The translations under genes and the position numbers were made by a program. Positions 62,362 to 64,000 of a DNA stretch of 64,000 bases are shown piece by piece. The number at the start of each line of letters is the position of its first letter. Within the stretch, counting starts at the first letter, position 1. The notes beneath the pieces are model-generated. The model searched no databases. It saw nothing but the letters and a program-made list of their open reading frames with translations, and was not told where the DNA came from. The DNA is from Oryzomonas sp. Its GTDB lineage: Bacteria; Desulfobacterota; Desulfuromonadia; Geobacterales; Pseudopelobacteraceae. Location: assembly GCA_031292255.1 (NCBI GenBank), contig JARLHN010000007.1:1-64000 (forward strand). The letters are read 5' to 3'.

Positions 62362-64000
62362 ATGGATGCAGGTCATGTAATGCCGAGCAGTTACATGGAA
62401 CATGGTTTCTGCCTTAATTGGGAAAGATCCCTTGTCGCCCTCCATGTGGGATCCGACATCATCATCGGCATCTCCTATTACTCCATCCCGCTTGCCATGT
62501 TTTATTTCGCCTATCGGCGGCGTGACCTTCCGTTCCTCAAGATATTCATCATGTTCGCGCTTTTCATTCTTTCGTGCGGGACCACCCATTTTTTAGCCGC
62601 TTACACCATATACCGGCCGGATTATTGGATTGAAGGCTATATTAAGGCGTTGACCGCTTCAATTTCCGCTGTGACGGCGATAATCTTCATTCCTCGAATC
62701 CCGGATGCCATTGCCCTGCCGAGTATCATCAACTCTCTGGAAGAGAATAAAAAGCTCATACGCGAACTCGGCACAAAGAATGCCGAGTTACAGTTGGCAA
62801 ATTTGTCAATTGAGAACGTCCTCGACCCTGTTTTCTGGATCACGGCGGATTCCCGGGTAATGCGTGCCAATGGAGCGGCATGCAAATCGCTTGGTTATAC
62901 GCATGAAGAAATGCTGGGATTATCGATTGCCGACTTGAATCCCCACCTTCCGCTGGAACGCTGGCTGGAACACTGGCGTCATCTGAAGGCAAGCGGTTCC
63001 CTGAGGTTTGAAACTCAACACCGGGCAAAAGACGGGCGTCTCCTGGATGTGGAGGTTTCCGCCAATTATATTTCCTACGAAGGACAGGAGTACAATTGCG
63101 CCATAATCCGCGACGTAAGCGCCCGCAAACGGATAGAAAGGGAACTCAGAGCCAACGAGAAACGCATGGCCAGTCTGTACAGTATTTCTCAGCATCCCTA
63201 CACCGGTGAGCACGATTTCCTTGACCATGCCCTCAATGAGGTGATTGAGCTGACCGAGAGCAAAATCGGCTACATCTACCTGTACAATGAAAAAACCAGC
63301 CAGTTCTCCCTTAGCTCTTGGTCGCATGACATCACGGGAGAACGTTCCGGCCTGGAGCCAAAGACCATGTACGAACTCGAGAACACCGGACTCTGGGGCG
63401 AGGCCGTGCGCCAGAGAAAACCTATTCTGATTAACGATTTCCAGGCTCATCATCCGCTCAATAAGGGATATCCCGATGGATACGCCGATCTCATGCGTTT
63501 CGTCACGCTTCCCATAATTGTCGACGAGGAGATAGTTGCCGTTGTTGGGATCGCCAACAAGGAAGGAGAATATACCGATACTGATGTGATGCAGTTGAAG
63601 CTGTTCATGGATTCCGTCTGGATGATCACCATGCGTAAACGGGCGGAAGATGATCGCGTCAAGCTGGAAAAACAGCTCCTCCATGCGCAGAAGCTGGAAA
63701 GTCTCGGGGTACTTGCCGGCGGTATCGCCCATGACTTCAACAACATCCTAATGGCGATTGTCGGCAATGCGGATTTGGCATTGATGAAACTCGTCCCTGA
63801 ATCGCCTGCCATAGGAAACCTGCGTGACATTGAGAAGTCGGCGGCTCGGGCTGCCGACCTTGCCAAGCAAATGCTTGCCTATTCAGGCAAGGGGAAGTTC
63901 ATTGTCGAAGCCATCGACCTGAATCGATTGCTGGAAGAAATGCTGCATATGCTGAAGGTATCCATCTCCAAAAAAGCTATATTACGTCTTGTCCCCGCCC
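62362..64000 (+). CDS. Ethylene-receptor-like sensor histidine kinase, C-terminus outside window
   Basis: About 546 codons visible, running off the window with no stop. An ATG with GGGGGGAC before it opens a protein whose first 115 residues hold three membrane helices: about 29-50, 58-84 and 92-111. Their sequence, VGSDIIIGISYYSIPLAMFY then FALFILSCGTTHFLAAYTIY, matches the ethylene-binding domain of plant ETR1 and bacterial homologues. Using a constant offset of seven, every pocket residue of ETR1 that I recall lines up: Asp32, Tyr39, Ile42, Pro43, Ile69 and the copper-binding Cys72 and His76. A PAS domain (about 155-255; NVLDPVFWITADSRVMRANG), a GAF domain (about 283-430; YIYLYNEKTSQFSLSSWS) and the acceptor motif GGIAHDFNNILMAIVGNADL with histidine 457 follow. 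The ATPase domain is cut. Ligand binding is not shown, only sequence agreement. Confidence 0.85.
   Translation, partial: MDAGHVMPSSYMEHGFCLNWERSLVALHVGSDIIIGISYYSIPLAMFYFAYRRRDLPFLKIFIMFALFILSCGTTHFLAAYTIYRPDYWIEGYIKALTASISAVTAIIFIPRIPDAIALPSIINSLEENKKLIRELGTKNAELQLANLSIENVLDPVFWITADSRVMRANGAACKSLGYTHEEMLGLSIADLNPHLPLERWLEHWRHLKASGSLRFETQHRAKDGRLLDVEVSANYISYEGQEYNCAIIRDVSARKRIERELRANEKRMASLYSISQHPYTGEHDFLDHALNEVIELTESKIGYIYLYNEKTSQFSLSSWSHDITGERSGLEPKTMYELENTGLWGEAVRQRKPILINDFQAHHPLNKGYPDGYADLMRFVTLPIIVDEEIVAVVGIANKEGEYTDTDVMQLKLFMDSVWMITMRKRAEDDRVKLEKQLLHAQKLESLGVLAGGIAHDFNNILMAIVGNADLALMKLVPESPAIGNLRDIEKSAARAADLAKQMLAYSGKGKFIVEAIDLNRLLEEMLHMLKVSISKKAILRLVPA

Follow-up and report, generated by a model that had tools for sequence, protein, structure and literature searches.

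A predicted ETR1-type ethylene receptor kinase in Oryzomonas sp. and its relatives in the Geobacterales

Domain architecture and genomic setting of the kinase gene

The 64,000-nucleotide stretch of Oryzomonas sp. DNA analysed here (the window; contig JARLHN010000007.1, assembly GCA_031292255.1) ends within a gene encoding a membrane-bound histidine kinase (Table 1). Followed across the window boundary, this gene reaches its stop codon at contig position 64812 and encodes a protein of 816 aa. The PAS, GAF, and kinase domains that an earlier note on this DNA had proposed were all found by Pfam; missing from that description was a C-terminal receiver, which lies outside the window and makes the protein a hybrid kinase. 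The HisKA match (aa residues 451 to 508) reached 19.1 bits, under the Pfam cut-off of 26.9; the kinase motifs (H457, N, G1, F, and G2) are intact, and the receiver residues D704, D705, D750, and K800 are all present.

Table 1. Features of the hybrid histidine kinase gene (window coordinates).
Feature	Position	Strand	Basis or remark
Hybrid histidine kinase gene, first 546 codons	62362..64000	+	ATG at 62362, frame open at window end
His/Met-containing N-terminal tail, residues 1-13 (H5, M7, M12), probably extracytoplasmic	62362..62400	+	
HGxC motif, residues 14-17, preceding helix 1	62401..62412	+	H, G, and C conserved together in 43 of 45 aligned domains
ETR1_N (PF25487) ethylene-binding domain, residues 24-119	62431..62718	+	Pfam, 113.9 bits, cut-off 27
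PAS domain, about residues 150-253	62809..63120	+	Pfam
GAF_2 domain, residues 283-421	63208..63624	+	Pfam, 88.1 bits, cut-off 28.6
Start of kinase module, HisKA region with phospho-acceptor H457	63712..64000	+	Pfam and motif reading
HATPase_c, residues 555-677	beyond window		69.9 bits, above Pfam cut-off
Response_reg receiver, residues 700-810, D750	beyond window		80.4 bits, above Pfam cut-off

The hydropathy profile contains three hydrophobic stretches within aa residues 24 to 123, in line with the three membrane helices previously noted for this front end, and an Arg-rich loop separates the first two. This loop carries four K/R residues, versus one in the first 26 residues of the protein, a hydropathy and charge pattern that suggests three transmembrane helices with the N-terminus outside. 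A further hydrophobic stretch (aa residues 377 to 399) falls inside the GAF domain.

Upstream of the gene, glycine-cleavage and lipoate genes were read by eye, and a PilZ protein is encoded downstream, past the window. A promoter scan of the upstream region detected no sigma-70-like site. Among the neighbours listed (the block for the window being complete), no ORF beside the gene recurred meaningfully near its relatives, setting aside ORFs that overlap the gene and a single mechanical ORF that locus L062 also has. No ethylene-linked genes were seen in the neighbourhood. As judged by eye, the gene is followed by a receiver-like ORF in AzoEtr1 and several relatives.

The ethylene-binding domain, its distribution, and its pocket residues

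The identity of the N-terminal domain and its family membership are fully supported. Residues 1 to 115 had been read earlier as an ETR1-type domain, and the profile search bore this out with an E value of 4.2e-33; this match is the real test against chance, rather than shuffling, in which none of 200,000 permutations of the 115 residues restored all seven pocket residues and the best restored five. None of 14 control genomes matched the ETR1_N profile. Searching PDB sequences with the domain yielded nothing at E values up to 1, and an AlphaFold2 model built from seven sequences had a mean pLDDT of 58.1, with residues 1 to 39 below 50, and lends no support to the geometry of the copper site.

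The strongest single comparison was with AzoEtr1, taken as the 525-aa frame in plasmid ABSP7_p1 DNA of Azospirillum brasilense Sp7 (locus L070), which is identical to the window domain at 52 of 107 positions (49%) without gaps. The seven residues named beforehand (D32, Y39, I42, P43, I69, C72, and H76) all stand where they had been placed, and the helix-3 lysine, K95, is present as well. The proposed constant offset of seven agrees with the ETR1 numbering of these seven residues. Independently of this, the gapless alignment places D35, C75, H79, and K98 of AzoEtr1, the published counterparts of ETR1 D25, C65, H69, and K91, on D32, C72, H76, and K95. Y32 is the remaining member of the seven essential ETR1 residues, next to those documented below.

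According to the published account of AzoEtr1, its first 130 residues bind 14C-ethylene saturably, ETR1 C65, required for copper coordination, aligns with AzoEtr1 C75, and, in the model given there, D25 (AzoEtr1 D35) positions H69 (H79) and bonds with K91 (K98) (PMC11819568). The copper site of ETR1 is described as Asp25, Cys65, and His69 (PMC12643061), and I35, P36, and I62 belong to a set of seven that ETR1 requires to bind ethylene (PMC6586836). By homology to this proven bacterial binder, the window protein likely binds Cu(I) and ethylene.

The ETR1_N profile matched 23 of the 141 genomes of the order (17 of the 103 good ones) and 10 of its 29 genera; within the window's genus, 3 of 6 genomes matched. 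In an even sample of the phylum (297 genomes), four matched at E 0.001 and two lay above the cut-off, one being the window's own. The scan of close relatives returned seven loci in all, among them L010 of Geomonas sp. Red32, L008 of Geomesophilobacter sediminis Red875, and loci in an uncultured Geobacteraceae bin. The profile also matched 19 of 72,556 plasmid records, 7 of them from Azospirillum, and no phage-borne copy was found among 50,697 phage records at E 1e-5. Two of the plasmid copies, L084 and L085 from Acaryochloris, look broken: an annotated IS1 transposase follows the L084 domain, and L085 is split into several short genes in its annotation.

The alignment of 45 rows represents all 25 above-cut-off places of the order scan, plus L009, and takes in sequences from 15 of the 19 matching plasmid records. 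Near-duplicates were retained (three Azospirillum rows, L051/L052, L063/L066, L084/L085, and L082/L089), and L044, L046, and L056 are truncated at contig ends. Dropped before counting were L045, L048, and L054 (the same genes as L010, L008, and L007), L067/L039 (G131; below the cut-off, with no tblastn match), L041 and L042 (below the cut-off), and L013. The last of these, in the uncultured Geobacteraceae bin (2329-2448), matches over its first 19 residues only, after which its frame departs from the family, owing either to a break or to an assembly joint.

Across the 45 rows, Y39, I42, I69, C72, G73, and H76 never vary; D32 occurs in 43 rows and K95 in 40, and 29 rows have the full set of seven ETR1 residues. 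The two rows without D32, L053 (genome G013) and L086 (a Rhodovastum plasmid), have N and S at this position, and both carry Asp in place of the helix-3 Lys, as does none of the other 43. This swap is consistent with the contact modelled between D25 and K91, as though the acidic residue had been relocated to helix 3.

A Geobacterales clade marked by its pocket proline and N-terminal tail

In a tree of 36 domain sequences, the 24 from this group formed one clade with an ultrafast bootstrap of 100, and two other members of the order (L044 and L053) fell outside it. All 24 clade members retain D, Y, I, I, C, H, and K at the pocket and helix-3 positions. The position of ETR1 P36 is changed in 13 of them, being P in 11, A in 10, T in 2, and G in 1, versus P in 20 of the 21 rows outside the clade. 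The window protein, which keeps P43, and its paralogue are of the proline kind, and two other genomes of the genus (L063 and L066) carry the alanine kind. The node uniting the proline-changed sequences had a support of only 39, and the tree would allow one or a few changes. Since P36 is counted essential in ETR1, the clade, with receptors carrying or lacking this proline, offers a natural test of whether the residue is needed or the ligand has shifted. From the sequences, the ligand, or the need for one, may have shifted in the proline-changed relatives. A strict link between the proline change and architecture was considered and rejected, as fused receivers occur in both kinds.

A Pfam scan of 27 proteins with the ethylene-binding domain (EBD) found a fused receiver in nine. 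Three of the 27, all from Geobacterales relatives (L047, L049, and L063), carry PocR, placed after the ethylene-type domain and ahead of the kinase. The founding paper on PocR, going by its title, reportedly predicts sensing of simple hydrocarbon derivatives. Elsewhere in the phylum, L068 (genome G256) joins the ethylene-type domain to PAS-GGDEF-EAL, a possible link to cyclic-di-GMP.

The window's own genome has nifD, nifK, and a fused nifEN above their cut-offs, that is, a Mo-nitrogenase, an enzyme that reduces acetylene to ethylene, and with these genes encoded the organism may carry out this reaction. A P-type ATPase with two HMA domains passed the heavy-metal model (372.2 bits, cut-off 346.25) and fell just short of the copper model (380.5 bits, cut-off 397) over the part scanned. 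Neither the nif genes nor the ATPase shows that ethylene is the signal. A search for reductive dehalogenases (PF13486) gave no match in the 141 genomes, nor in the controls, and is uninformative. Also in this genome (locus L080, contig C44, about 21.6-24.3 kb) is a long nitrogenase-like fusion ORF, of which 953 aa were scanned and which reached the cut-off of none of the NCBIfam models listed.

It is possible, if doubtful, that ethylene is only a surrogate and that the ligand sensed at this Cu(I) site is a different small molecule, for example acetylene, CO, or some other alkene. The altered proline in much of the clade, the PocR-containing relatives, and an encoded enzyme that turns acetylene into ethylene would all suit such a sensor, but the window protein itself retains all seven ETR1 residues.

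The second clade feature is the tail that precedes the HGxC motif. This motif stands directly before helix 1, and the Pfam match begins after it; to our knowledge, it is absent from Arabidopsis ETR1. Ahead of it, all 24 clade members carry a short His/Met-rich tail, in which H and M make up 76 of 261 residues (29%), with at least three per tail, although the members are related and the counts therefore not independent, even with 22 of the 24 tails differing. When the Met of a shared Y-M is left out, the share is 52 of 237 (22%). Outside the clade, H and M account for 6 of 158 residues in nine tails and for 13 of 295 in an enlarged set of 18, or about 4%. The background, 154 mechanical ORFs (250 codons or longer) on fragments of the same group, contained 4.5% H and M, and 3 of these ORFs had three or more such residues at positions 2 to 13. 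An M-x-H start occurs in 16 of the 24 clade tails, versus none of the 9 outside and 3 of the 154 background ORFs; in the enlarged non-clade set it occurs in 1 of 18 (L083). These counts take the ATG nearest the expected place, with starts chosen by hand for the added rows, so that single starts may be wrong, and they omit L044 (no start in frame), L053, and L088 (both without HGxC).

By the positive-inside rule, the tail would lie outside the membrane. It resembles the His/Met tail of Ctr1 copper importers, and it may capture copper. A tail and motif of this kind ahead of the site could also belong to a sensor of copper or silver availability that reads whether its Cu(I) site is filled, any ethylene binding being incidental; we consider this unlikely, since the ligand-side residues Y39, I42, and I69, which a plain metal site does not need, are invariant throughout the alignment.

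The genome encodes a second receptor-like protein (contig C23, 12629-14941; 770 aa) with the order EBD-PAS-PAS-kinase-receiver. The two copies are 65% identical over their first 270 residues and 39% identical in their kinase-receiver parts, and both keep all seven pocket residues and the helix-3 Lys. Across the genus (six genomes), the best 19 other matches to the full window protein (66-73% identical) start only at about its residue 417 or later. The same kinase-receiver module thus stands behind many different front ends, indicating an exchange of sensors among kinase modules; other kinases probably use the same output path. Such promiscuity would also suit a domain that is a relic and merely holds the kinase in the membrane while PAS and GAF do the sensing, but this is very improbable given pockets preserved in both copies despite such divergent kinase modules.

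Proposed mechanism and comparison with known receptors

Taken together, the window protein is probably a membrane-bound hybrid histidine kinase of the ETR1 ethylene-receptor type, with ligand binding and signalling predicted from its sequence. Counting against this reading are the proline changes within the clade, the lack of ethylene-linked neighbours, the low pLDDT of the model, and the HisKA score under its cut-off. Ethylene as the natural signal of a Geobacter-type bacterium is plausible, a weaker claim than the binding itself in view of that neighbourhood and the 13 changed prolines.

In the proposed mechanism, the receptor is probably a dimer, in which the three N-terminal helices would hold Cu(I) through C72 and H76, and D32 would position H76 and contact K95. 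The His/Met-rich tail may help to load the copper. Ethylene would bind on the copper, and the resulting change would pass via PAS and GAF to the kinase, which would phosphorylate its own C-terminal receiver and then a downstream carrier. Copper at the pocket residues and ethylene binding are carried over from the published work on homologues, and we infer the dimer, the topology, the direction of the signal, and ethylene, rather than another small olefin or alkyne, as the natural ligand.

Two features of its clade, the proline changed in some members and the His/Met tail, lift this receptor above the routine. A broader proposal, which we put forward tentatively and to which we give rather low credence, is that the Geobacterales hold a receptor branch of their own. 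The extracytoplasmic tail and HGxC would load copper without help, a task done for plant receptors by RAN1 and chaperones, and the branch would be split by the proline into a classic ethylene kind, to which the window protein would belong, and a P36A/T/G kind whose specificity has shifted to a different small ligand, together amounting to a sense for hydrocarbon gases. Removal of the tail would show whether a receptor itself can encode copper loading. If ethylene is bound, Geobacter-type sediment bacteria, which are anaerobes, would join the organisms that perceive a plant hormone gas. Among the papers listed from open-access main texts, Geobacter and ethylene receptor or ethylene-binding occurred together only in unrelated passages or reference lists, and an earlier listing of Geobacter ethylene-domain sequences is quite possible.

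An ethylene receptor here is not unique among bacteria, such receptors having been published for Synechocystis and Azospirillum (PMC11819568). AzoEtr1 shares with the window protein the domain, its D, C, H, and K, and the PAS and histidine kinase that follow; it differs in its length of 525 aa, in having the receiver as a separate gene according to its published description (PMC11819568), in the absence of a GAF domain by Pfam, and in a tail that is not His/Met-rich. Arabidopsis ETR1 has the seven pocket residues and three helices followed by GAF, kinase, and receiver, whereas its published layout is without the PAS domain found in the window protein (PMC6586836); it is an ER-membrane protein supplied with copper via RAN1 (PMC12744750). 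SynEtr1 of Synechocystis PCC 6803, represented in our comparisons by the cyanobacterial plasmid relatives L071, L073, L084, and L085, is likewise described as a bacterial ethylene receptor signalling by phosphorelay, but it is also a light sensor (PMC11819568).
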